From contig JANYKC010000082.1 of NCBI GenBank assembly GCA_025358255.1, forward strand, positions 17,236 through 81,235: DNA of 64,000 nt, written 5' to 3'. The stretch's first letter is position 1. The number at the start of each line of letters is the position of its first letter. The stretch is from Spirochaetaceae bacterium. GTDB taxonomy: Bacteria > Spirochaetota > Spirochaetia > Treponematales > Rectinemataceae. The notes below the pieces were generated by a model, which saw only the letters and a list, made by a program, of their open reading frames with translations, made no database searches and had not been told where the DNA came from. A program made the position numbers and the translations under genes. Positions 23,788-47,259 of the stretch are shown piece after piece.

Positions 23788-23903
23788 CGGGACGGCGCAG
23801 CGTCGATCCCTGATATGGCAAAGGTCCCGGGCCTGGCGAGACGCCTTGGAATGGATGGGTTGGCGGCGCATTTGCTGATCCAGGCGATAAAATGGAGGAA
23901 CCT

Positions 23904-24743
23904 GTGAAAATCGGTATCGTTGGTCTAGGAACGATCGGGCTCAAGCTAACCGAGTACTTGCCACAGAAAGGATTCGACGTCGTAGCGTACAATTACCGGG
24001 CAATCGATGCGAAAATGGCGGAAGTGACCCGAAATTTCGAGAAGAAAATCAAGTACGAAAAGCTTAGTTATGAATACCTTGACCTGATGCTTCCCAGGAT
24101 TTCCTATACATCGGATCTGGGGGTCGTGGCGGATGCTGACATCGTCATTGAATGCAGCAAGGAAGATTACGAAACCAAGAGCCTGCTCCTGCAAAGGCTC
24201 TTTGAGCTGGCAAAGCCGCATGTGGTCATTTCGTCCACCACATCCAGCCTAAACCTCGAAAAACTATGCGCCGCCGAGAACTGGAACCGCTTCTGCGGCA
24301 TCCACTTCTTCAACCCCCCCACGAGGATGAGGCTGGTCGAATTGGCGTTCATGCGCACGACATCGGATGGCACCAAGACCAAGGTCTTGGGGTTCCTCAG
24401 CCAACTTGACGACAAGCGCGTCATCGAGCTTCCTCCCATTCAGGGATATGTGGTCAACAAACTGCTATTTCAGTACATAAACTCTGCGATCAACCTTGCC
24501 TCGGCCGAAAAAATCTCCCTGGGTGACGTGGATGAAGCGATGAAGCTTGGAACAAATTCCCCAATGGGACCGTTTGAGCTGGCGGACTATGTAGGCTTGG
24601 ACGTGACGCTTCAAATCCTCATTACCCTTTTCGACGCGACCGGCGATCCGACGTTCAATCCCAACAAGGACCTTCGCGCGCTGGTTGCGTCCGGCAAGCT
24701 AGGACGGAAGACCGGCCAGGGCTTTTACACATATCAGAAGTGA
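23904..24743 (+). CDS. 3-hydroxyacyl-CoA dehydrogenase family protein
   Basis: The 279-residue protein has an N-terminal NAD-binding fold (KIGIVGLGTIG) and the 3HCDH motifs ADIVIECSKEDYETKSLL, SSTTSSLNLEKL, GIHFFNPPTRMRLVEL and SPMGPFELADYVGLDV. These keep the Ser, catalytic His, Asn and late Pro-Phe-Glu region of the family. It could interconvert 3-hydroxy- and 3-ketoacyl thioesters. GTG 23904 follows GGAGG by 5 nt and is preferred over the ATG at 23892, which lies inside that ribosome site. Its place between acyltransferase genes and the Fdt/Qdt genes suggests supply of an acyl donor; this is inference. Confidence 0.85.
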   Translation: MKIGIVGLGTIGLKLTEYLPQKGFDVVAYNYRAIDAKMAEVTRNFEKKIKYEKLSYEYLDLMLPRISYTSDLGVVADADIVIECSKEDYETKSLLLQRLFELAKPHVVISSTTSSLNLEKLCAAENWNRFCGIHFFNPPTRMRLVELAFMRTTSDGTKTKVLGFLSQLDDKRVIELPPIQGYVVNKLLFQYINSAINLASAEKISLGDVDEAMKLGTNSPMGPFELADYVGLDVTLQILITLFDATGDPTFNPNKDLRALVASGKLGRKTGQGFYTYQK

Positions 24744-24752
24744 GGTTCCGCA

Positions 24753-25595
24753 ATGAAGAAGATAAGCGATACCGCACGCATCTCACGAAGCGCGAAGATC
24801 GGGGAAAATGTGGTCGTTGGCCACAATGTCACGATAGGAGATGGTTGCGTAATTGAAGAAGGCGTGACAATTTCCGATAATTGCATTGTATATCCCAATT
24901 GCGAAATTGGCTCGAATTCCTTCATTGGACCCTTCGCGACGATTGGTGAACCAACATTTCCATACTATGAAAAGCGGGACGAATTCGTTTTTCCCACGAC
25001 GAGGATCGGGAAAAAGGCGCTGGTTAGGTCCTATTCATTGATTTACTCCGACGTGATCATCGGAGACGACTTCCAGTGCGGCCATCGGGTATCGATACGC
25101 GAGCGTGCCCAGATCGGAAACAATGTTCGTATCGGCACAGTATCCGATATCCAGGGCTATTGTAGCATCGGGGACTACACGCGCATCCACAGCAATGTAC
25201 ATATCGGGCAGAAGAGCTCTGTCGCCGCCTTCGTGTGGATTTTCCCTTACGTCGTGCTGACGAATGACCCGACCCCTCCATCGGACGAGCTATATGGCGT
25301 GACCGTCAAGAGCTTTTCAGTGATCGCGACGGGAAGCATTCTCCTTCCGGGGATAACCGTAAATCTCGACGGGTTCGTGGGTGCCCATTCGCTCGTCAAG
25401 AAGGATGTACCGGCGGAGACTGTCGTCTCGGGAGTCCCGGCGAGCGAGATCTGCAATGTGCGAAAGCTGAAAAACCGCAAGACCGGGGAGACATGCTACC
25501 CATGGCGGTTCTATTTCGATCGCGGCATGCCTTGGGAAGGCTTGGGCTACGAGGTTTGGGAAAAGGCCCAGGCTTCGGATAAGCAGGGACTTTGA
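24753..25595 (+). CDS. Hexapeptide-repeat N-acyltransferase, probably for a dTDP-amino sugar
   Basis: The 280-residue protein is a long left-handed beta-helix with many I-G-x-x-x-x turns (ARISRSAKIGENVVVGHNVTIGDGCVIEEG, VRIGTVSDIQGYCSIGDYTRIHSNVHIG, GVPASEICNVRKL). It lies directly before the ketoisomerase and aminotransferase of a dTDP-3-aminosugar, so it likely N-acylates the 3-amino group (compare QdtC/FdtC). It is longer than the usual QdtC, and a short non-helical C-terminus (CYPWRFYFDRGMPW) is added. The acyl donor could be acetyl- or a hydroxyacyl thioester. It is coupled to the next gene by a one-base overlap. Confidence 0.78.
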   Translation: MKKISDTARISRSAKIGENVVVGHNVTIGDGCVIEEGVTISDNCIVYPNCEIGSNSFIGPFATIGEPTFPYYEKRDEFVFPTTRIGKKALVRSYSLIYSDVIIGDDFQCGHRVSIRERAQIGNNVRIGTVSDIQGYCSIGDYTRIHSNVHIGQKSSVAAFVWIFPYVVLTNDPTPPSDELYGVTVKSFSVIATGSILLPGITVNLDGFVGAHSLVKKDVPAETVVSGVPASEICNVRKLKNRKTGETCYPWRFYFDRGMPWEGLGYEVWEKAQASDKQGL

Positions 25596-26014
25596 TGGAA
25601 ATCCGAATCTTCCCCCTGGCCGTCAAGGGGGATGCCCGCGGATCCCTGGTCGCGATCGAGGGCAATCAAGACATCCCTTTCGATGTCCGGCGCATTTATT
25701 ACATCTATGATACCTGCCCTGGGGTTGTCAGGGGCAAACACGCGCATATCGCCTTAAAGCAGCTTCTTATTTGCATTCACGGCACATGCACGATACTCCT
25801 CGATGATGGGACCGAGCGGGTTGAAGTACCGCTCTCCCGGCCGGATGAAGGCCTGTTCATCAACTCGCTCGTATGGAGGGAGATGAAGGATTTTTCGTCG
25901 GATGCCGTGCTGCTTGTCTTGGCCAGTGAGCATTACGATGAATCCGATTATATTCGTAAATATGATGATTTCCTGGAAATCGCGGAAAAAGAGCGCGCGC
26001 GGAGGCAAGCATGA
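25595..26014 (+). CDS. fdtA: dTDP-4-keto-6-deoxyglucose 3,4-ketoisomerase (FdtA/QdtA)
   Basis: The 139-residue cupin has the family pattern [51 protein letters not shown], with the paired His of the active site and the late [15 protein letters not shown] motif. It moves the keto group from C4 to C3 in dTDP-4-keto-6-deoxyhexose. The ATG at 25595 shares a base with the previous stop, and the stop overlaps the aminotransferase start (ATGA). FdtA (galacto product) and QdtA (gluco product) cannot be told apart by eye. Confidence 0.88.
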
Positions 26015-27123
26015 TTCCCTTCCTTTCCCTGAAAGACATCTCCGAATCCTTCCAGCCGGAAATGGATGAAGCCATAGCGAAAGTCGTGCATTCGGGCTGG
26101 TACATCCATGGCGCGGAGGTCTCGGCCTTTGAAGAGGAGTTTGCGGCCTTTTGCGGCGCCCGCAATTGCATAGGTGTCGCCAATGGACTGGACGCTCTTG
26201 TCCTCATCCTACGGGCATACCTGGAAATGGGCAAGCTGCATGCCGGTGATGAAGTGGTGGTTCCGGCCAACACCTACATCGCCTCCATCCTTGCGATTTC
26301 CGCCAATGGTCTTTCGCCCGTGCTCGTCGAACCTGACCCCAGGACGTTCACGATCGATCCAGCACGAATCGAGGCCTCACTTACCGCAAGGACCAAGGCG
26401 ATCATGCCGGTGCACCTGTATGGACAAGTCGCGGAGATGGAGCCTATCCTTGCCCTCGCTTTCCGCCGCGGATTGTTGGTCATCGAGGACTCTGCCCAGT
26501 CGCACGGCGCCCTTTACCATGGAATGCGCGCAGGAAGCATCGGGGACGCCTCGGGATTCAGTTTCTACCCAGGCAAGAACCTCGGCGCGCTCGGCGATGC
26601 CGGCGCCATCACGACAAATGACGATGGTTTGGCGGAATGCGCGCGTTCGCTCGCGAACTACGGCTCACGCGAAAAGTACGTCAATGATTTCAAGGGCACG
26701 AACTCCAGGCTGGATGATATCCAGGCCGCTGTCCTGCGGGTGAAACTAAGGCGATTGGATGCCGACAATGATCGTCGCCGGCGGATTGCCGAACGCTACC
26801 TCGCAGGCATGAAGAATCCCTCTGTCGAGACCCCGCAGGACCTTGATAAGCTGAGGCATGTCTGGCACCTGTTCGTGGTCCGTTCGAAGAAAAGGGACGC
26901 GTTGCAAGCGCATCTGCTTGCAAAGGGAATCCAGACGATAATACATTATCCAATACCTCCCCATCGCCAAAAAGCGTATTCAGAATGGACGGATCGGGAA
27001 TACCCGATCACCGAGGCGATACATGAGGAAGTCGTAAGCCTTCCCATGAGTCCCTTGCTTTCCGACGCGCAAATCGATGCAGTTATCAGCGCCGTAAATT
27101 CATTTAGAGCCGATACGCAATGA
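26011..27123 (+). CDS. fdtB: DegT/DnrJ aminotransferase (FdtB/QdtB type)
   Basis: The 370-residue PLP enzyme has [46 protein letters not shown] and the Schiff-base Lys in [17 protein letters not shown] (about residue 189). It should transaminate the 3-keto sugar made by the preceding ketoisomerase to dTDP-3-amino-3,6-dideoxyhexose. The [12 protein letters not shown] form is typical of the 3-aminotransferase subgroup. Coupled by ATGA. Together with rmlA and rmlB the pathway to dTDP-Fuc3N or dTDP-Qui3N is complete. Confidence 0.88.
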
Positions 27124-33680: not shown

Positions 33681-33742
33681 AGCAGAAAGACAAGGAATGA
33701 TGACCGGAAACCGCAATGCACCAAGGTGATCGGAGGACATTT

Positions 33743-34546
33743 TTGAAAGGAAATCTCGCCATTCTCGTCATTTCTTGTGACAATTACCGAGATGTCTGGA
33801 AGCCGTTTTTCGAGCTCTTTTCCAAATTCTGGCCAGACTGTCCGTATCGCCTGTATCTGGGTTCGAACAAGGCGGATTTCGAGTATCCCGATGTCACCGT
33901 GGTGAAATCCGGAGAGGACATATCCTGGGCGGATAACGTCAGGAAGTATCTTGCCCAGATCGATGAAGAGTACGTCCTGACATTTCTTGAGGATTTTTTC
34001 ATTTGCCGTCCAGTCCCTACCGCGGCCATCGAGAGCGCGTTCAAAACCATGGTGAAAGACCATATCGATTTGTTCAGCTTCACATTGCCCAAAAAGGGCG
34101 AACCTTTCCCGCAATCGGAGAACGTCTACTATATCGATCCGAGAGCGGAATACTGCGTCAATACAGCCATAGCGATCAGGGCGAAAAATGCTTTCCTGAC
34201 GCTACTGAAGCCGGGATATAGCGCTTGGGATTTCGAGGTGAAAAACAGCAAGCAAGTGAACGAGGCGGGTTCGTTTCCTGGCGTTTTCGTAACCTCCGGG
34301 ATCGATTACTTTCCTTTGCTGAATGGCATCTGGAGGGGGAAATGGGTCCCCGGAAGCGTCCGGTTCTGCCGACGAGTGGGCATAGACGTTGATACATCGG
34401 TTCGCCCTTTCATGGAGCCTAACGAACGGATTTGGGAGTTTGCGAAAGGGACCGGCCGAAGGTTGATGAACCCTTCCATCCGAAGGATGCTGAAACGCCT
34501 CCTGATTCGGTTTGGCCATTCCCGCAGGTTTGTTTCCCAGGATTAA
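33743..34546 (+). CDS. Glycan-cluster protein, possible glycosyltransferase
   Basis: I cannot name the family with certainty. The 267-residue protein starts LAILVISCDNYRDVWKPFFELFSKFWPDCPYRLYLGSN, like a GT-A nucleotide-binding fold, and has EEYVLTFLEDFFICRP in the place of a DxD site. It has no membrane segment. The TTG at 33743 follows GGAGG by 6 nt and is preferred over the ATG at 33716, which has no ribosome site. Its location among glycosyltransferases supports a role in building the unit. Confidence 0.65.
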   Translation: MKGNLAILVISCDNYRDVWKPFFELFSKFWPDCPYRLYLGSNKADFEYPDVTVVKSGEDISWADNVRKYLAQIDEEYVLTFLEDFFICRPVPTAAIESAFKTMVKDHIDLFSFTLPKKGEPFPQSENVYYIDPRAEYCVNTAIAIRAKNAFLTLLKPGYSAWDFEVKNSKQVNEAGSFPGVFVTSGIDYFPLLNGIWRGKWVPGSVRFCRRVGIDVDTSVRPFMEPNERIWEFAKGTGRRLMNPSIRRMLKRLLIRFGHSRRFVSQD

Positions 34547-38730: not shown

Positions 38731-39087
38731 ATGATTGGGATCGATCTTGTGAACATAAAAAGGTTCGAAAAGGCGGTCTGCGGGAAAAACCGGAATCGAG
38801 CGCTGCCGAAGCTCTTCACTTCGGAAGAGCTCAAGCAATGCGAGGACGCGACCGGCGAACTCAAGCTTGATTCCTTGGCAGGGCGGTTTGCGATAAAAGA
38901 GGCAGTTATCAAGGCCTCGAGAGGCGAGTTGTCATTTTTCGACCTTGATCATATCGCGATACGGCAGGACCTCAAGGGCTTTCTTGCGGCAGTCGTCGTC
39001 GGCAAGGATGTGCGATGTCCTTTCTACGAGGTCTCGATGAGCCACGATGGCGAGTATGCTGTCGGAATGGCAGTTCAAGGCAACTAG
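38731..39087 (+). CDS. acpS: Holo-acyl-carrier-protein synthase (AcpS type)
   Basis: The 118-residue protein has the AcpS motifs MIGIDLVNIKRFEKAV (metal Asp), LFTSEELKQCE, LAGRFAIKEAVIKAS (Glu and Lys for metal and phosphate) and SMSHDGEYAVGMA. It moves 4'-phosphopantetheine from CoA to the Ser of an acyl carrier protein. It lies 29 nt behind the polymerase and ahead of an ACP gene, so it may serve that carrier; it could also be the only AcpS of the genome. Confidence 0.92.
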   Translation: MIGIDLVNIKRFEKAVCGKNRNRALPKLFTSEELKQCEDATGELKLDSLAGRFAIKEAVIKASRGELSFFDLDHIAIRQDLKGFLAAVVVGKDVRCPFYEVSMSHDGEYAVGMAVQGN

Positions 39088-39202
39088 CCTGTCTCCTTCG
39101 TCCGGGAAACTTCGCGTTGCCGCCGATCGGTGCAAGGGTGGCAGGCCCGTCAATTGCGTTTCGATCGGCTCTATCCCCGAGCACCGCATTCTTTTCGCGC
39201 AA

Positions 39203-39224
39203 GGATTGCCGCCTTCGGCAATCC
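39203..39224. other. Hairpin between acpS and the ACP gene
   Basis: GGATTGCCG-CCTT-CGGCAATCC is a perfect 9-bp stem with a 4-nt loop and no U-tract. It could be an attenuator or a processing site in the 287-nt gap, where I see no convincing gene. Confidence 0.45.
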
Positions 39225-39235
39225 GGATTACGCAC

Positions 39236-39264
39236 TTGAATTATCCAATGTTGGCAAGTAATGT
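39236..39264 (+). promoter_or_regulatory. Candidate internal promoter before the ACP gene
   Basis: TTGAAT, a 17-nt spacer and TAATGT lie just after the hairpin and about 105 nt before the ACP gene. It could drive the acyl module independently of the long operon. Confidence 0.35.
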
Positions 39265-39374
39265 TCCTCGTTGGGATAGCGCTGGAAAGGCAGAGCCTTC
39301 ATGGCGCATCGGTTTTTTTCGACGAAGTGACAGGTTTTCCCAAAGTCAGACCACTATAAGAAAGAGGTAGCAGT

Positions 39375-39674
39375 ATGTTGTCCCAGGAAAAGGCGATGAC
39401 CATGATCGAGGATTCGATCGCCGGATTGAGGCGAGCTGGCCTTCTTGGCGCGGATCTCGCCGTTGATGGTGGCTTGGTGCTATTAGGCACCGGATCGCCG
39501 CTGGATTCGATCGCGTTCGTGACGTTTATCACCGACCTCGAAGATCGACTCAATGGCGAGACCGGCAAGGATCTCTATCTGGTACTGACGGATATCCATG
39601 AGTTCAATACAGACAATGCGCGCTTGACCGTCGAGACCCTGGCGCGCTATCTGGTGAAGCTGGCTCAGCAATAG
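39375..39674 (+). CDS. Acyl carrier protein
   Basis: The 99-residue helical protein has the carrier motif GTGSPLDSIAFVTFITDLEDRL, with the phosphopantetheine-accepting Ser at about residue 45 after Asp (DSI, as in DSL). It is less acidic than fatty-acid AcpP and has an insertion after helix II (NGETGKDLYLVLTDIHEFNTDNARLT), as in specialised carriers. It probably holds the acyl chain made by the neighbouring reductase and condensing enzyme. Confidence 0.85.
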   Translation: MLSQEKAMTMIEDSIAGLRRAGLLGADLAVDGGLVLLGTGSPLDSIAFVTFITDLEDRLNGETGKDLYLVLTDIHEFNTDNARLTVETLARYLVKLAQQ

Positions 39675-39684
39675 GCCGGATTCC

Positions 39685-40392
39685 ATGACGGAGCAAACGG
39701 TCCTTGCCATTACGGGAGCCAGTCGGGGCATTGGCTTGGCGATGGCTGAGCATTTCGCAAGAAAGGGCATTCGCGTGGCTGGTTGCAGCCGCGGGCCGAG
39801 CCAAATCGCGGCCGATAACTACCTGCATACGCAAGTGGACATCACGGACGACAAAGAGGTTCGCGGCTGGATTCGCGGCATAAAAAAGGCCTATGGCAGG
39901 CTCGACGTCGTGGTGTGCAACGCAGCGCTCGTGCCTCCCGCCGCACTTCTGCTGAACACCGCGACCGAGACCTTGGATGCCGTATTTCGGGCAAACGTGA
40001 ACGGCACGTATCTCGTTTGCCGTGAGGCGGCGAAAATGATGCTGCTGCAGCGATTCGGCCGGATCATTACCGTATCGAGCATGGCTGTCGGACTGCATAG
40101 CGAAGGAAGCTCGCTCTATGCGGCCTCGAAAAGCGCGGTCGTCGAAATGACAAAGATACTGGCAAAGGAACTGGCACCTTCGGGAATAACCTGCAATGTC
40201 ATCGCGCCATCGGTGTATGAATCCTCCGCTGTCGCGAATTTGGGCGAGGCCGTTGTCGCGCATGCCCTCGGCCAGTTGACGCTCAAGCGGGCGCTTACGA
40301 TCGCGGAGATCTGCAATGTCATCGAATTCTATGCTGCCCCTGAAAGCGGTTGCATCACCGGGCAGGTAACGCACCTTGGGTTGGTGGTCTGA
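39685..40392 (+). CDS. FabG-like short-chain dehydrogenase
   Basis: The 235-residue Rossmann protein has LAITGASRGIGLAMAEHF (cofactor loop), CNAALVPPA, the catalytic SSMAVGLHSEGSSLYAASK (Ser, Tyr-x3-Lys) and GCITGQVTHLGLVV at the end. In the company of an ACP and a KAS III protein it most likely reduces a 3-ketoacyl-ACP to a 3-hydroxyacyl-ACP with NADPH. It starts 10 nt after the ACP gene, and its stop shares a base with the next start. A sugar substrate is an alternative. Confidence 0.85.
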   Translation: MTEQTVLAITGASRGIGLAMAEHFARKGIRVAGCSRGPSQIAADNYLHTQVDITDDKEVRGWIRGIKKAYGRLDVVVCNAALVPPAALLLNTATETLDAVFRANVNGTYLVCREAAKMMLLQRFGRIITVSSMAVGLHSEGSSLYAASKSAVVEMTKILAKELAPSGITCNVIAPSVYESSAVANLGEAVVAHALGQLTLKRALTIAEICNVIEFYAAPESGCITGQVTHLGLVV

Positions 40393-41096
40393 TGGCCACG
40401 AGCTTGAATGCCCGGGAGATACTCGTGGGCGAGTATCACATCTCCACCTTCGTCACGGGCGGGTCCTGGAAAGAAAACACCTACTTGATCCGTCATGTTG
40501 GTAGCGGCGAGATGGCAGTCATCGATCCGGGAGAGGACGAAGGCGAGATCGCGGCCACCATCCAGTCCCAGGGCGGGCGGCTGAAATACATCCTGCTGAC
40601 CCATGGGCACCACGATCATGTTGGCGGAGTCGCCGCCCTTGGACGGGAACATGGAATTTGCTGCTACGTGCATCCTGAAGACCTGCGTTTGCTCCATCAT
40701 GCCCCGATGTATGCGCTTCGGTTCGCGCAGAGGAAAATCGAAAAACCTGAACCATATTGCCTCCTCGACGATGCGCAGGACCTCAACTTGGGGGCCCATC
40801 CGATCGGCATCATCAAGACGCCTGGCCACACCATGGGGAGCGTATGCTACGTGATTGGCGGAGCGGTATTCACGGGTGATACCCTTTTCTTCGAGCATGT
40901 CGGACGTGTAGACCTGCCCGGGGCGAATGCCTCCCTGCTGCCGGCATCGATCGGGATTCTGGTCGATTCGGTCCAGCCGTCGGCAATCATCTTGCCCGGG
41001 CATGGACGCACCTGGTCGATCGCCGAAGCGAGCCTGTGGTGGCTGTCCGCCGGGAAGGCCGAGTTGCCTCAATATACCGAACCATCGAAGAAATGA
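40392..41096 (+). CDS. Metallo-beta-lactamase-fold hydrolase
   Basis: The 234-residue protein has the metal site LTHGHHDHVGG (HxHxDH near residues 71-76), KTPGHTMGSVCYV, VFTGDTLFF and ILPGHGRTW, like the glyoxalase II group. It probably hydrolyses a thioester or lactone. In this module it may release or proofread acyl chains from the carrier. The start shares a base with the reductase stop. The substrate is not known. Confidence 0.85.
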   Translation: MATSLNAREILVGEYHISTFVTGGSWKENTYLIRHVGSGEMAVIDPGEDEGEIAATIQSQGGRLKYILLTHGHHDHVGGVAALGREHGICCYVHPEDLRLLHHAPMYALRFAQRKIEKPEPYCLLDDAQDLNLGAHPIGIIKTPGHTMGSVCYVIGGAVFTGDTLFFEHVGRVDLPGANASLLPASIGILVDSVQPSAIILPGHGRTWSIAEASLWWLSAGKAELPQYTEPSKK

Positions 41097-41119
41097 CCAA
41101 GCCATGGAGTGGTTAAAGC

Positions 41120-42148
41120 GTGAACAATCCGCAATCCCCCGACCGCCGCGCCAAAATCCTCGGTATCGATTACGTTTTGCCGTCGAATCGTGTCACCAAT
41201 GACATGTTGGACAAGCTTCATCCTGCATGGCAGATGGAGCAAGTTGCCCTTCGTACCGGCGTCCTCGAACGCCGATGGTGCGCTCCCGGGGAAACAGCCC
41301 TTGACCTCGCGGTGACCGCATGCCGAAAGGTGATCGACCGGGTCGGCCCCAAGCCAAATGAGATCGACGCGATCCTATTCTGCACGCAGTCGCCTGACTA
41401 TATAATGCCGCCCAACGCGTGCCTCTTGCAGTCGAAATTGGGATTGGGCACGGAAATCGCCGCATTCGATTTTTCCCTCGCATGCTCGGGATATATATAC
41501 GGATTGTATATCGCAAAGGCCTTGATCGAATCAGGGCAGGCCCGAAACGTCCTGCTCGCTACGGCCGAGACATATTCAAAGCATATGAATCCCGATGATA
41601 GGGGGCCGATCACGCTCTTCGGCGACGGCGCCGCCGCGACCTTGCTTGGGTTGGGAGAAAGCGGGCTCGAGTCCGTGGTTGTCGGAACGGACGGGCGCGG
41701 CGCCGAGACCTTCATGATCCCCGCTGGCGGCGCGCGCCTGCCGCTGTCAGGCGAAACGAGAGTGGCGAAGGAAGATCCCAGCGGCAACCTGCGTAGTGCC
41801 GAGGACATTTACATGAACGGCGGCGAGGTTCTTGATTTTGTAAAAAGGGATATCCCTGGCATGATTCGTTCGGTCCTCAAACGGGAAGGCTGCGATTTCC
41901 AGGACATTGACCTTGCGGTTTTCCATCAAGCGAGCAAGGTCACCCTTGATTTCCTGAATCGTGCCTTGCATATACCGCCGGAAAAGCAATTCAGCAATAT
42001 CGCTCTTGTCGGGAATACGGTTTCGGCTTCGATTCCCATTGCGCTTCGTGACGCGGAACTTCAAGGCGTCTTGACAAGCGGAATGCGCGTAGTGATCGCC
42101 GGATTTGGCGTTGGGTTGTCGTGGGGCGGTTGCGTCCTTACATGGTGA
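41120..42148 (+). CDS. Beta-ketoacyl-ACP synthase III-like protein
   Basis: The 342-residue thiolase-fold protein keeps the KAS III triad. The Cys is in FSLACSGYIYGL (about 122), the His in VFHQASKVTLDFL (about 269) and the Asn in LVGNTVSASIPIAL (about 299). It condenses an acyl-CoA with malonyl-ACP to a 3-ketoacyl-ACP. Start GTG 41120. The NTVSASIP form replaces the NTSAASIP of FabH. With the FabG-like reductase and no dehydratase or enoyl reductase, it points to a short 3-hydroxyacyl product. Confidence 0.9.
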   Translation: MNNPQSPDRRAKILGIDYVLPSNRVTNDMLDKLHPAWQMEQVALRTGVLERRWCAPGETALDLAVTACRKVIDRVGPKPNEIDAILFCTQSPDYIMPPNACLLQSKLGLGTEIAAFDFSLACSGYIYGLYIAKALIESGQARNVLLATAETYSKHMNPDDRGPITLFGDGAAATLLGLGESGLESVVVGTDGRGAETFMIPAGGARLPLSGETRVAKEDPSGNLRSAEDIYMNGGEVLDFVKRDIPGMIRSVLKREGCDFQDIDLAVFHQASKVTLDFLNRALHIPPEKQFSNIALVGNTVSASIPIALRDAELQGVLTSGMRVVIAGFGVGLSWGGCVLTW

Positions 42149-42172
42149 AATTCTTTCGGAGGATGGACTATC

Positions 42173-43546
42173 ATGGAATCAATTGATGCTGTTCTTGGTC
42201 GCATGCGCAAAAACGACACGGCGCCGGCGCTTTTTTGGCGTGATAGGGAATACTCGTACAGCCAATTCATGGCCCTCGTAGATGCATGGACCGTGAGCCT
42301 GGTGGAAAAAGGGATCGGGAAAGGCGTCGTTTGCGGAGTGCTGGGCGAATTTTCGCCGCAAATCTGCGCTTTGTTCTTCGCATTGATGAAGGTCCGGGCC
42401 ATCCTGGTGCCTTTCAGCCATGCCGCTGAACCTGAGATGCCCGCATTCATCGCATTGGCGGGAGTCCAGAAACTGTTCAGGTTCAACGCCGATGATGAAT
42501 GGACTCTCGAATCCTTCTCGGACGCGGTGCCAAACGATCTCGTCACCGGTTTCCTTCAACGAAACGAGCCGGGACTCATAGTGTTCACCTCGGGTTCCAC
42601 CGGGAAGCCCAAGGGAATCCTGCACGATTGCGAACTGGTGATGCGGAAATTCGTAAGCGAGCGTGAAGGATGGCGAACCTGCCTCTTCCTGATGATAGAC
42701 CATTTCGGTGGCTTCAATACATTCCTTTCGACCTTCGCCTACGGTGGGGTGGCCGTATGCCTCCCGCAGCGGACGGCGGAGGCAGTATGCCGGGCCATCG
42801 AGCAATCCAAAGCCACATTGCTGCCAACGACCCCGACATTCCTCAATCTCCTGATCGCCTCCGGCACGTATCGGAGTTTCGACCTTTCGTCGATCAAGCT
42901 GATTTCCTACGGTACGGAGCTCATGCCTGAAGCGACCTTGAGCAAGGTGCAGTCAATATTCCCCAATGCCCAGTTCAAGCAGACATACGGCCTCTCCGAG
43001 CTTGGCGTGTTGCGGTCAAAATCCGAGAACGACGGTTCCGTTTGGGTGCGCGTCGGAGGAACGGGATTTGAGAGCAAGATAATCGACGGAATACTCTGGG
43101 TCCGCTCGGAAGCCAATATGGTAGGCTACCTGAACGCCCCTAGCCCCTTCGACGCCGAAGGCTGGATGTGCACTGGCGATGAGGTCGAGGTCAAGGGCGA
43201 GTACATTCGCTTCCTCGGACGCAAATCGGAGATCATCAACGTTGGCGGCCAGAAAGTCTTCCCGATCGAGGTGGAGACCGTGCTCCTGCAGGATCCCAAC
43301 GTGAGGGAGGCGACCGTCTTCGGTGTCAAGCATTCCCTCATGGGCCAGGTCGCGCATGCGCGCATTTCCCTGCACGAGCCCGAGGAGCAAGGCGCACTGA
43401 CCGAAAGGCTGAGGAAGCTCTGCTTGTCCCAATTGGTCAAGTACAAGGTGCCAATGCGCTTCGTTGTCGTCGAAGAGGATTCACAGCATGGCACCCGGTT
43501 CAAGAAGCTGCGTCAGGGCTTTGACGGCGAAAAGGCCAATCCATGA
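42173..43546 (+). CDS. Acyl-adenylating ligase (ANL superfamily)
   Basis: The 457-residue protein has the ANL motifs IVFTSGSTGKPKGI (phosphate loop), TYGLSELG, GWMCTGDEVEV and FLGRKSEIINVGGQKVFPIEVE, and a C-terminal lid ending RFKKLRQG with a candidate catalytic Lys. It activates a carboxylic acid as acyl-AMP and loads it on CoA or on the carrier protein. At about 460 residues it is compact. GGAGG-like spacing precedes the ATG, and the stop overlaps the GNAT gene by ATGA. Confidence 0.88.
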   Translation: MESIDAVLGRMRKNDTAPALFWRDREYSYSQFMALVDAWTVSLVEKGIGKGVVCGVLGEFSPQICALFFALMKVRAILVPFSHAAEPEMPAFIALAGVQKLFRFNADDEWTLESFSDAVPNDLVTGFLQRNEPGLIVFTSGSTGKPKGILHDCELVMRKFVSEREGWRTCLFLMIDHFGGFNTFLSTFAYGGVAVCLPQRTAEAVCRAIEQSKATLLPTTPTFLNLLIASGTYRSFDLSSIKLISYGTELMPEATLSKVQSIFPNAQFKQTYGLSELGVLRSKSENDGSVWVRVGGTGFESKIIDGILWVRSEANMVGYLNAPSPFDAEGWMCTGDEVEVKGEYIRFLGRKSEIINVGGQKVFPIEVETVLLQDPNVREATVFGVKHSLMGQVAHARISLHEPEEQGALTERLRKLCLSQLVKYKVPMRFVVVEEDSQHGTRFKKLRQGFDGEKANP

Positions 43547-44157
43547 AGGTGAGGCTGGCCAATCGCAACGACGCGCCATGTCTGGCGGAATTGCATGAAC
43601 AAAGCTCCGCCAAGCAGCCCGGCGGATTCATGTTCCGCCTCGGGCGGAAATTCCTCTCGAAATACTATCGCTTCCTCATCGATGATGGCAGCAGCCTGAT
43701 CCTTTGCGCGACGGATGACTCCGGTCGACTTATCGGCTTCGTTGCCGGCGCCCTTGACGCCGAGGGCCGGATGGAAAGCCTCAAGAAAAGAAGGCTGCAG
43801 CTCTTTTTGGCATCCCTTCCCGCGCTGCTGCGCCATCCAAGCCTCATACGCGAAGTTCTGGCGAGGCAGAATTCCGAATCGGTGGATGAGTCCGGCACCG
43901 GATACGTGGTCCAGGCAGGGGCTCATGAGGAATTCTGGGCCTGGATACCCGAGCATAACGGGGGCGGTGCGATAGAATTGCACTTGAAGTGGCTTTCCCT
44001 TATGCGGCTTCTTGGCGCAGAGACCATAAGCGGCGAGGTCGACAAGGTGAATGACGCGATCATGAGGACCCATCGAATGCTCGGAGCGAAGGTCGTCAAG
44101 GAATTCGTCACCCCCGACGGGCGGGAACGCGTCCTCATCCAATATCGATTGAAGTAA
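43543..44157 (+). CDS. GNAT-family acyltransferase
   Basis: The 204-residue protein has a GNAT fold, with LANRNDAPCLAELHEQS at the start, SLILCATDDSGRLIGFVAGAL as the central strand pair, and AIELHLKWLSLMRLLGAETISGEVDKVNDAIMRTHRMLGAKVVKEF at the acceptor end. It is a candidate for moving the acyl chain made by the preceding genes onto an amino sugar, since the next gene is an aminotransferase. It is coupled to the ligase gene by ATGA. Acetyl-CoA as donor cannot be excluded. Confidence 0.75.
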   Translation: MKVRLANRNDAPCLAELHEQSSAKQPGGFMFRLGRKFLSKYYRFLIDDGSSLILCATDDSGRLIGFVAGALDAEGRMESLKKRRLQLFLASLPALLRHPSLIREVLARQNSESVDESGTGYVVQAGAHEEFWAWIPEHNGGGAIELHLKWLSLMRLLGAETISGEVDKVNDAIMRTHRMLGAKVVKEFVTPDGRERVLIQYRLK

Positions 44158-44232: not shown

Positions 44233-45393
44233 ATGGCAGCGGAATCCAGCATTTGGAAAGTCCAGCTTTTCAAGCTCAATTACGATGAACGCGAATACAA
44301 GGCAGCCCAGGAGACGCTCGAATCCGGCTGGATAACGATGGGGCAGCGCACCCTGGATTTTGAGGAAGCCTATGCCAAGCTGCTTGGCGAAGGCTCGAAA
44401 TGCATCGCCGTCTCGAATGGCACCGCTGCCCTTCATATCGCCGTGCTTGCCGCAGGGGTCCTTCCCGGCGACGAGGTGATCGTACCCTCCCTCACCTTCA
44501 TCGCGGACCTCAATTCGGTCACCGTCTCCGGTGGCAAAGTGGTTCTATGCGACGTCACCTCAAAGGCCGATTGGGCGATGGATCCTGCGGACATCGAGCG
44601 CAAGATCACCAAGAAAACGAAAGCCGTGATGATCGTACATTACGCGGGCTATGCGTGCGACATGGAAGCGATCATGGATGTCTGCAAGCGGCATGACCTC
44701 AAGCTTATCGAGGACTGCGCCCATGCGCCCGGAGCCGACTACAAAGGCAGGAAGCTGGGTACTTTCGGGGATATCGCCGCATGGAGCTTCTTCTCGAACA
44801 AGAATCTCGCGGTTGGCGAAGGCGGAATGATCTCGATGCGGGACCCCGGACTTCACCAGAAGTGCAAGAACCTCCGGTCCCATGGCATGACGGTGGCGAG
44901 TTTTGACCGAATGAAGGGTCGTGCGGTCTCGTACGATGTTCTTGAAGCCGGGTTCAATTACCGGATCGATGAAGTAAGGTCCGCGCTCGGGCTGGTCCAG
45001 CTCTCGAAGCTCGCGGGATCCAACCTGCGGCGCAAGGAACTGACCCTGAGGTACTTCATGCGCCTGGATGCGATGAAGGGCCTTTCAGTACCCTTCCGCA
45101 AGTTCAACCGTGGACTTCCCTCCTACCATATAATGCCCGTGCTGCTCGACGAAAAAATGGATCGTGCGAGGATAATCGAGGTGCTGAAGGAGGACGGGGT
45201 GCAGACAAGCATCCATTATCCCTCCATACAGTCGTTCACCGCTTACAAGAGCCATGTGGGTCCGACGCCTGAGTCCGAGTATATAAGTGACCATGAGCTT
45301 ACCCTTCCGCTCTATCCGACGATGACAGACGCCGACGTGGACCTTGTGTGCGCGTCGCTTGAGCGAGCCTTGCCGCTCGCTCGCCAGGGGTAG
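44233..45393 (+). CDS. DegT/DnrJ aminotransferase (UDP-4-keto-6-deoxy-GlcNAc 4-aminotransferase-like)
   Basis: The 386-residue PLP enzyme has AVSNGTAALHIAVLAAGVLPGDEVIVPSLTFIADLNSV, LIEDCAHAPGADY and the Lys in WSFFSNKNLAVGEGGM (about residue 190), with NYRIDEVRSALG. The FFSNKNL pattern and the 4,6-dehydratase next door suggest amination of UDP-4-keto-6-deoxy-HexNAc at C4, as PglE or PseC do. A strong GGAGG lies before the ATG. It stands 7 nt ahead of the dehydratase gene. Confidence 0.85.
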   Translation: MAAESSIWKVQLFKLNYDEREYKAAQETLESGWITMGQRTLDFEEAYAKLLGEGSKCIAVSNGTAALHIAVLAAGVLPGDEVIVPSLTFIADLNSVTVSGGKVVLCDVTSKADWAMDPADIERKITKKTKAVMIVHYAGYACDMEAIMDVCKRHDLKLIEDCAHAPGADYKGRKLGTFGDIAAWSFFSNKNLAVGEGGMISMRDPGLHQKCKNLRSHGMTVASFDRMKGRAVSYDVLEAGFNYRIDEVRSALGLVQLSKLAGSNLRRKELTLRYFMRLDAMKGLSVPFRKFNRGLPSYHIMPVLLDEKMDRARIIEVLKEDGVQTSIHYPSIQSFTAYKSHVGPTPESEYISDHELTLPLYPTMTDADVDLVCASLERALPLARQG

Positions 45394-45399
45394 TCGGGC

Positions 45400-46590
45400 A
45401 TGGACTTCATCCTCGATCTTATCGGCAGGGACCGAGAACTTTTTTCGACCGATGTCCATGCGAACGAAAAGGAACTCTCCCGGATTGTCGCAGGATCGAC
45501 TTTCCTCGTGATCGGCGGCGCAGGGTCGATAGGCCAGGCCGTGACGCGCGAAATTTTCCGCAGGAATCCGCGGCGGCTCCATGTCGTGGATATCTCGGAA
45601 AACAACATGGTGGAGCTTGTCAGGGACCTCAGGTCCTCGATCGGCTATATCGAAGGTGAATTCGCCACGTTCGCGATCGATGCGGGCTCCGCCATTTTCG
45701 ACGCATTCTTCGAAGACGGGCCTGGATATGATTACGTCCTCAACCTGTCGGCACTGAAGCATGTGAGAAGCGAAAAAGATCCTTGGACCTTGATGCGCCT
45801 GGTCGACGTCAATGTTTTCAATACTGAGAAGACAATGATGCAGGCGAAGGCCAAGGGATCCTCCAGGTATTTCTGCGTCTCCACAGACAAGGCGGCCAAC
45901 CCCGTCAACATGATGGGCGCGTCGAAACGCATCATGGAGATGTTCCTCATGCGGCGCAGCCTCGAGATGCCGGTTTCGACCGCTCGCTTCGCGAATGTGG
46001 CATTTTCGGACGGAAGTCTTCTTTTCGGTTTCAACCGCCGAATGGAAAAAGAGCAGCCGCTTTCGGCGCCTAATGACGTCCGCAGGTATTTCGTGACGCC
46101 CAAAGAGTCAGGGGAGCTCTGCCTCATGTCCTGCCTCCTCGGCGAAAACCGGGACGTTTTTTTCCCTAAGCTCGACCATGACCTGAATCTCATCACCTTC
46201 AGCGAGATAGCCGAAAGGTACCTTCGAAGGATTGGCTACGAGCCGGTCCCCTGCGCATCGGAGGAAGAGGCGCGGGGGCGGGTGCAGGAACTAAAGGCAC
46301 AGCATAAATGGCCAGTGCATTTTTTCGCAAGCGATACCACCGGCGAGAAGGACTTCGAGGAATTTTTCATGGAAGGCGAAAAGCTGGATATGGCCAGGTT
46401 CGGCTCGGTGGGTGTCATAAAGAACGAGGCTCGTTATGACGAGGCAAGGCTTGCAAGGTTCGAAGCCCGAATCGCCGAACTGAAGACCATTGGAAAGTGG
46501 ACTCGAGGCGACCTTATCGACCTATTCAACGAGATGATTCCCGATTTCAACCATAGGGAAACCGGAAAGTTCTTGGACGGGAGAATGTAG
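45400..46590 (+). CDS. UDP-N-acetylhexosamine 4,6-dehydratase (WbpM/CapD catalytic type, soluble)
   Basis: The 396-residue protein has a Rossmann start (STFLVIGGAGSIGQAVTREIFRRNPRRLHVVDISENNMVELVRDLR) and the active site VSTDKAANPVNMMGASKRIMEMFL, in which Met replaces the classical Tyr, as in WbpM-type dehydratases. WbpM itself is membrane-anchored and about 660 residues; this form lacks the anchor domain. It should make UDP-4-keto-6-deoxy-HexNAc for the aminotransferase encoded just upstream. A C-terminal extension of about 60 residues is unassigned. Confidence 0.87.
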   Translation: MDFILDLIGRDRELFSTDVHANEKELSRIVAGSTFLVIGGAGSIGQAVTREIFRRNPRRLHVVDISENNMVELVRDLRSSIGYIEGEFATFAIDAGSAIFDAFFEDGPGYDYVLNLSALKHVRSEKDPWTLMRLVDVNVFNTEKTMMQAKAKGSSRYFCVSTDKAANPVNMMGASKRIMEMFLMRRSLEMPVSTARFANVAFSDGSLLFGFNRRMEKEQPLSAPNDVRRYFVTPKESGELCLMSCLLGENRDVFFPKLDHDLNLITFSEIAERYLRRIGYEPVPCASEEEARGRVQELKAQHKWPVHFFASDTTGEKDFEEFFMEGEKLDMARFGSVGVIKNEARYDEARLARFEARIAELKTIGKWTRGDLIDLFNEMIPDFNHRETGKFLDGRM

Positions 46591-47259
46591 ATGGCGAGAC
46601 TATTCGATATCATTTTCTCCTTGATCGCGATGGTCATCCTTTTCCCATTCATGCTGCCCATCATGATCGCGCTCAAGCTCAGCGGCGAGCACTATGTTTT
46701 CTACTTGCAGCCGAGGGTCGGGAAGGGCGGGAGGGATTTCAGGGTTTTCAAGTTCGCCACAATGCTCAAGGATAGCCCGAATCTGCCTGGGGGCGTGCTT
46801 ACCCAGAAGAGGGATCCACGTATCCTTCCAATGGGCAATTTCCTGCGCAAGACGAAAATAAACGAACTCCCGCAACTCATGAACATTTTCATAGGGCAGA
46901 TGAGCTTTGTCGGTCCTCGGCCGCAGGCTCGACGCCATTATGAGCTATACGGCCCCGAGGTGCGCCAGGCGATAGACCTCCTGCGCCCCGGCCTGACCGG
47001 CATCGGGTCTGTCGTCTTCCGCGATGAGGAATCGATGCTCGACAAGGTGTCGGGAGACCGCGACCATTTTCATGACACTGTGATAGCGCCCCACAAGGGA
47101 GAGTTGGAAGTCTGGTACACAAGGCATCAAGGCTTGGGTTCTTATTTTGCTCTGGTTTTCCTGACGGCGCTCGCCGTAGCGAAACCTTCTAGCGACCTGT
47201 ATAGGAGGATTTTCAAGGATCTTCCAAGGCCTCCGGCGGAACTTGCAGCGCTCCTATAG
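46591..47259 (+). CDS. Monotopic phosphoglycosyltransferase (PglC/WcaJ-like), atypical active site
   Basis: The 222-residue protein has an N-terminal membrane helix (IIFSLIAMVILFPFMLPIMIAL) and the transferase motifs QPRVGKGGRDFRVFKFATM, DPRILPMGNFLRKTKINELPQLMNIFIG and MSFVGPRPQ. The catalytic dyad reads Asn-Glu (INELPQ) instead of Asp-Glu, and KFRTM is KFATM. It would transfer a 6-deoxy-HexNAc-1-phosphate to undecaprenyl phosphate, matching the two preceding genes. The substitutions leave activity uncertain. The ATG follows the dehydratase stop directly. Confidence 0.82.
   Translation: MARLFDIIFSLIAMVILFPFMLPIMIALKLSGEHYVFYLQPRVGKGGRDFRVFKFATMLKDSPNLPGGVLTQKRDPRILPMGNFLRKTKINELPQLMNIFIGQMSFVGPRPQARRHYELYGPEVRQAIDLLRPGLTGIGSVVFRDEESMLDKVSGDRDHFHDTVIAPHKGELEVWYTRHQGLGSYFALVFLTALAVAKPSSDLYRRIFKDLPRPPAELAALL

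Follow-up and report, generated by a model that had tools for sequence, protein, structure and literature searches.

Very probable synthesis of a short acyl group on a dedicated carrier protein, for attachment to an amino sugar, by a gene block of a spirochaete glycan cluster

The DNA considered here, called the window, is a 64,000-nt stretch of a Spirochaetaceae bacterium (assembly GCA_025358255.1, contig JANYKC010000082.1, positions 17,236–81,235), and window coordinates are used throughout. At 38731–44157 lies a block of seven genes, all with intact open reading frames (ORFs), which encode in this order the phosphopantetheinyl transferase AcpS, an acyl carrier protein (ACP), a short-chain dehydrogenase/reductase (SDR), a hydrolase of the metallo-β-lactamase (MBL) fold, a 3-ketoacyl-ACP synthase III (KAS III), an ANL ligase and a GNAT acyltransferase. 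Downstream of the GNAT gene follow an aminotransferase, a UDP-GlcNAc 4,6-dehydratase and a small phosphoglycosyltransferase (PGT) (Table 1). Synthesis of a short acyl group on a private carrier protein and its transfer to an amino sugar are very probably the tasks of the block, and systems of this kind are already known. The initial annotation of the window had described it as a dedicated carrier-protein module for N-acylation of amino sugars. This outline is supported by experimental precedents and by the linkage to amino-sugar genes, while its pairing of the SDR with KAS III and its 4-amino sugar as the general target are revised below.

The annotated genes and their order were confirmed, five of the proteins (AcpS, SDR, MBL, KAS III and ANL) by clear families and the ACP and GNAT by other evidence. 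The statement that five genes touch or overlap was generous, as overlaps occur only between SDR and MBL (1 bp) and between ANL and GNAT (4 bp). The gaps measure 10 bp (ACP–SDR), 23 bp (MBL–KAS III) and 24 bp (KAS III–ANL), and AcpS stands 287 bp away from the ACP. An ORF in that larger gap (39047–39370) was rejected as an extra gene, its relatives occurring in none of the fetched loci, and a promoter scan gave match numbers at chance level.

Neither the ACP nor the GNAT matched a family of Pfam or NCBIfam, and PDB sequence searches with either protein returned chance-level matches only. The AlphaFold2 (AF2) model of the ACP is a confident four-helix bundle (predicted local distance difference test, pLDDT, 94.8) in which Ser45 opens helix II. 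In an alignment with 17 relatives, Ser45 is invariant and Asp44 nearly so, which bears out the DSI serine read from the sequence, and from the ACP-like model and the invariant serine it is predicted that phosphopantetheine is attached at Ser45 of this dedicated ACP. A fold search with the ACP found no significant match, the nearest meaningful ones being weak matches to ACPs, and a plasmid search with it as query found no match. Sixty members of the ACP family were present in the fetched loci, almost all adjoining an SDR and an ANL. The GNAT model is of moderate quality (pLDDT 72) with GNAT enzymes as its top fold matches, and relatives of the protein pass Pfam Acetyltransf_1.

The KAS III residues Cys122, His269 and Asn299 align with C112, H244 and N274 of the Escherichia coli enzyme, so that families and alignment agree with the Cys-His-Asn triad first proposed. 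Phe87 and Arg249 of the E. coli enzyme are replaced by Met and Val, a hint that the starter and ACP preferences may differ from those of FabH. Housekeeping fatty-acid synthesis was rejected as the identity of the block, because its KAS III and SDR fall outside the FabH and FabG branches and because FabH, FabZ, ACP and AcpS are encoded separately elsewhere, with the other AcpS on contig C85. The block thus lacks orthologous FabH and FabG. No FabZ was found near the module, as had been stated at first, and the sole FabA/FabZ match of the genome lies on contig C13 beside the housekeeping FabH; FabI, said to be missing too, had no separate search.

Table 1. Genes of the block and the three genes downstream of it, in window coordinates
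Feature	Position	Strand	Evidence
AcpS, phosphopantetheinyl transferase, second of the genome	38731..39087	+	PF01648 E 3.6e-13
Divergent acyl carrier protein, Ser45 in DSI motif	39375..39674	+	Context of relatives, alignment, AF2 model
SDR reductase, module-specific clade	39685..40392	+	PF13561/PF00106; motifs TGASRGIG, YAASK
MBL-fold hydrolase, GloB-like, probable thioesterase	40392..41096	+	PF00753; HGHHDH
KAS III, module clade, Cys-His-Asn	41120..42148	+	PF08541/PF08545; exceeds NF006829 cut-off
ANL (AMP-forming) ligase, MupQ/TmlQ subfamily	42173..43546	+	PF00501+PF13193
Predicted GNAT-fold N-acyltransferase	43543..44157	+	AF2/Foldseek GNAT E 7e-9
DegT aminotransferase, PseC/ArnB-like, predicted 4-aminotransferase	44233..45393	+	PF01041; TIGR03588 E 5e-88, under cut-off
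UDP-GlcNAc 4,6-dehydratase	45400..46590	+	3PVZ matched full length, E 9e-182
Phosphoglycosyltransferase, small, PglC-like size	46591..47259	+	PF02397

An ANL-alignment scan of 85,462 species genomes yielded at least 80 loci from many phyla. The order ACP-SDR-MBL-KAS III-ANL is kept in L020, L025, L026, L077, L083 and L089, and L029 has SDR-MBL-KAS III-ANL. This five-gene order was seen in Bacteroidota, Gemmatimonadota, Burkholderiales and relatives of Geobacter, where a GNAT and amino-sugar genes usually adjoin; L077 comes from Acidovorax sp. SRB_14. Because it recurs across phyla, the block is more than a chance arrangement, and the gene-order search that had been proposed as a check links the module to amino-sugar genes elsewhere. 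In the KAS III tree, the window enzyme groups with the module KAS IIIs of the order-conserved loci (support 100/99) and apart from FabH. The nearest enzyme outside this clade is that of Burkholderia glumae pBGF3, which lies beside vioA and flagellin in a flagellin island. No close KAS III was found among 392 other genomes of the phylum of the window, the nearest two being at 37% identity, and the module was likely acquired horizontally. Two Deinococcus plasmids (L012, L013) carry a module-clade KAS III and ACP, with a radical SAM or coproporphyrinogen-oxidase-like protein, a GNAT and polyketide synthase (PKS) or non-ribosomal peptide synthetase genes as neighbours.

Two types of insert occur within the module. 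In the window, KAS III alone stands between the shell genes (type a). The second type (type b) consists of a KAS III', a methyltransferase, a MaoC-SDR fusion and a protein of ~600 residues with a NIF/HAD-phosphatase match, which we infer to be FkbH-like; it was found in L019, L022, L023, L033, L070, L074 and L093, with the methyltransferase in some of them, and many of these loci are of the Pse type or the 3-amino-sugar type. L090 of Pseudoduganella namucuonensis has type b as well. With its MaoC-SDR fusion, type b contains the kind of regular dehydratase that the initial annotation had named as refuting its scheme, and the window type has none. On the ANL tree the two inserts alternate at least seven times, an approximate figure as several branches are weakly supported. 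Across these loci, the shell (ACP, SDR, ANL and usually MBL and GNAT) stays constant and the building insert is exchanged. Co-occurrence was counted in loci with the module SDR and at least 3 kb of sequence on either side. Of 18 loci with a condensing insert, 15 had the MBL gene and 15 had amino-sugar or nonulosonic-acid genes nearby; of 25 loci lacking such an insert, none had the MBL gene and 7 had such sugar genes nearby. A GNAT of some type was present in 7/9 type-a and 12/16 type-b loci; relatives of the window GNAT lie directly behind the ANL in L072, L087 and L095 and adjoin a DegT aminotransferase in L007 and L008, and this co-occurrence upholds its place in the module. In several Chloroflexota loci (L036–L038, L040–L048, L066), ACP-SDR-ANL is followed by a ~485-residue protein with no Pfam match, often with a WecB-like epimerase, and KAS III and MBL are missing.

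Among the closest known systems, two decorate 4-amino sugars. The viosamine island of Pseudomonas syringae and the flagellin glycosylation island of P. aeruginosa PAK comprise vioA, vioS, vioR, acp and vioB, and the vioR mutant of P. syringae lost the modified viosamine, 3-hydroxybutanoyl-viosamine (PMC3927599). Like the window, the vio island combines an ACP, KAS III, 3-oxoacyl-ACP reductase, acyltransferase and 4-aminotransferase, which give an N-(3-hydroxybutanoyl) 4-amino sugar (PMC3927599). Unlike the module, it serves dTDP-viosamine for flagellin, ANL, MBL and AcpS are not described for it, and the vio-type SDR of B. glumae falls in a different clade. In Flavobacterium psychrophilum, the O-antigen R-group genes wfpC-G, pglE, pglF and wfpB place 3,5-dihydroxyhexanoyl on QuiNAc4N, an amide shown by nuclear magnetic resonance (PMC6519341). 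Shared features there are an ACP, 3-ketoacyl-ACP synthase (two in that locus), reductase, acyltransferase, UDP-QuiNAc4N enzymes and the PglC-like WfpB (PMC6519341). The acyltransferase of F. psychrophilum is PglD-like, not a GNAT, the roles of the genes there were assigned by homology, and the available part of that source does not describe ANL, MBL or AcpS. As in both systems, a 3-ketoacyl-ACP synthase and a reductase lie beside the ACP of the window. The FdhC/QdhC 3-hydroxybutanoyltransferases of E. coli O103, Acinetobacter and Hafnia make the same kind of decoration on amino sugars, but as single transferases for which no dedicated ACP module is described (PMC4869667). The di-O-methylglyceric pseudaminic acid locus of Campylobacter jejuni (PMC3068675), compared by concept alone, resembles type b in adding an acyl decoration to a nonulosonic acid and is not of the window type. 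In the searchable literature, mostly without subscription journals, a version containing AcpS, ANL and MBL, the order conservation across phyla and the exchangeable insert were not found.

The genes behind the block bear on the sugar. The best PDB matches of the aminotransferase are ArnB structures, and aminotransferase, 4,6-dehydratase and acyltransferase adjoin one another, the last being a GNAT and not a hexapeptide protein. Within the phylum of the window, the PGT recurs next to the same dehydratase, and in L158 the aminotransferase-dehydratase-PGT trio is found without the module. In L144 (10093–12427), a 3-hydroxyacyl-CoA dehydrogenase, 47% identical to that encoded at 23892 in the window, and a hexapeptide transferase adjoin the PGT-aminotransferase-dehydratase genes, in the place that the ACP module takes in the window. 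The trio in the window and in L158, together with the L144 neighbourhood, points to a putative acylated UDP-QuiNAc4N as the first sugar, as in F. psychrophilum (PMC6519341). Elsewhere in the window (23892–27123), a 3-hydroxyacyl-CoA dehydrogenase, a hexapeptide acyltransferase, an FdtA-type ketoisomerase (PF05523) and a DegT aminotransferase follow one another; apart from the ACP module, these genes may provide a hydroxyacyl 3-amino sugar by a route that uses CoA. A 276-residue protein with no Pfam match is encoded at 33716–34546 within the glycosyltransferase array; by eye, its N-terminus resembles that of a protein encoded just 5' of the module in L026 (6216–7022).

With moderate confidence, we favour the reading that the block serves the glycan cluster as a dedicated module for acyl synthesis and transfer, whose hydroxyacyl product would be moved by the GNAT to the 4-amino group of UDP-QuiNAc4N. 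The reading builds on gene identities, order conservation, co-occurrence and trees, from which the catalytic steps are deduced. AcpS would activate the private ACP, on which ANL, SDR and KAS III would assemble a short hydroxyacyl thioester with no dehydration. The MBL-fold enzyme may hydrolyse thioesters from the condensing step, either for release or for editing. The GNAT, presumably with the ACP and not CoA as donor, would then acylate the 4-amino group of the UDP-QuiNAc4N supplied by the 4,6-dehydratase and the aminotransferase, and the PGT would start the glycan with the acylated sugar. Analogy with the vio island suggests 3-hydroxybutanoyl as the acyl group.

Several observations weigh against this reading. 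The amino-sugar association is not independent of relatedness, and a test that controlled for it had about four independent pairs, too few to settle the matter either way. Next to the module, most relatives have genes for an FdtA-type ketoisomerase and a 3-aminotransferase-like protein, or Pse genes (L019, L033, L070). Because related modules frequently act in 3-amino-sugar or nonulosonic-acid pathways, it is the adjacency in the window and in L026 that speaks for a 4-amino target; the 4-amino sugar annotated as the GNAT substrate agrees with the neighbouring aminotransferase and dehydratase of the window but does not hold as a general target. Furthermore, of 55 loci without KAS III, 40 still have the SDR and ACP together with ANL, so that a KAS III product is not a necessary substrate of the SDR. 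In the SDR tree, the module proteins form one clade of 54 rows separate from FabG, TmlS and the B. glumae SDR, so that identity with TmlS or with the B. glumae enzyme was rejected. From this single clade and the loci without KAS III, the SDR is to be grouped with ANL and ACP, KAS III being an optional companion, and the FabG-like partner of KAS III in the initial annotation was not borne out.

The ANL points to another possible chemistry. It is 36% identical to TmlQ over its full length and 60–68% identical to the nearest module ANLs among the matches listed. In the tree it groups with TmlQ, far from other ANLs, on a long branch whose position inside the group is unsure; the TmlQ used is encoded in L018 and was taken as such from the plasmid that carries it and the order of its genes. 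By sequence, the ANL is a member of the MupQ/TmlQ subfamily, whose enzymes prime ACPs with hydroxyacyl groups. MupQ loads an ACP, so that supply of an acyl-CoA starter, the role annotated for the ligase, is one option only. MupQ, MupS and MacpD make 3-hydroxypropionyl-ACP, and with MupD present MmpF extends this to 3,5-dihydroxypentanoyl; in the original mup/tml work, priming reportedly passes through a bis-thioester intermediate. Since the SDR is not a private partner of KAS III and the ANL falls in this subfamily, a 3-hydroxyacyl group is not the sole product to be considered. The ANL could couple malonyl- or succinyl-CoA, by way of the free carboxylate, to the ACP and the SDR reduce the CoA end, and KAS III would extend the resulting 3-hydroxypropionyl- or 4-hydroxybutyryl-ACP by one C2 unit to an omega-hydroxy or dihydroxyacyl amide. 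The likeness to MupQ/MupS/MacpD and TmlQ/TmlS/TacpD extends to the triad of ANL, SDR and ACP followed by a ketosynthase (KS), with the order ANL-SDR-ACP-KS on pTML1, and the linkage of the SDR with ANL instead of KAS III fits as well. However, these cassettes make an antibiotic side chain, the module SDR lies outside the MupS/TmlS clade, their ketosynthase is the KAS I-like MmpF, which the KAS III does not resemble, and the ACPs are too divergent for useful comparison. Taken jointly with the C2 extension, this route is rather unlikely. Also unlikely, by a little more, is a broader proposal in which the module would be a cross-phylum plug-in with a constant shell, an exchangeable insert and a mupirocin-type omega-hydroxyacyl starter, so that a swap of inserts would rewrite the surface acyl group.

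The MBL gene bears on a further possibility, in which KAS III and SDR would build the acyl group on the ACP, the MBL enzyme would free the acid and ANL would remake an acyl-CoA for the GNAT. GNATs normally use acyl-CoA, solved relatives of the MBL protein include GloB-type thioester hydrolases, and the MBL gene keeps company with the condensing insert in the counts given above. However, ANL stays with ACP and SDR where MBL and KAS III are missing, and the release step would waste ATP, which makes this route quite improbable. Synthesis of a small secondary metabolite or lipid by a module that sits in the glycan cluster by chance is very improbable, since the nearest, order-conserved relatives adjoin FdtA/DegT, PGT or Pse genes, although relatives of the ANL also occur in PKS clusters (L015, L016, L018) and those of KAS III in the Deinococcus PKS loci.

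Serotype and recognition depend in part on unusual N-acyl groups of surface amino sugars, yet the biosynthesis genes are known for few of these groups. An order-preserving cassette with two interchangeable inserts would provide a sequence signature by which such groups may be predicted in many phyla. It also ties the decoration of glycans to the chemistry by which mupirocin and thiomarinol obtain their starter units, a connection that is directly assayable.

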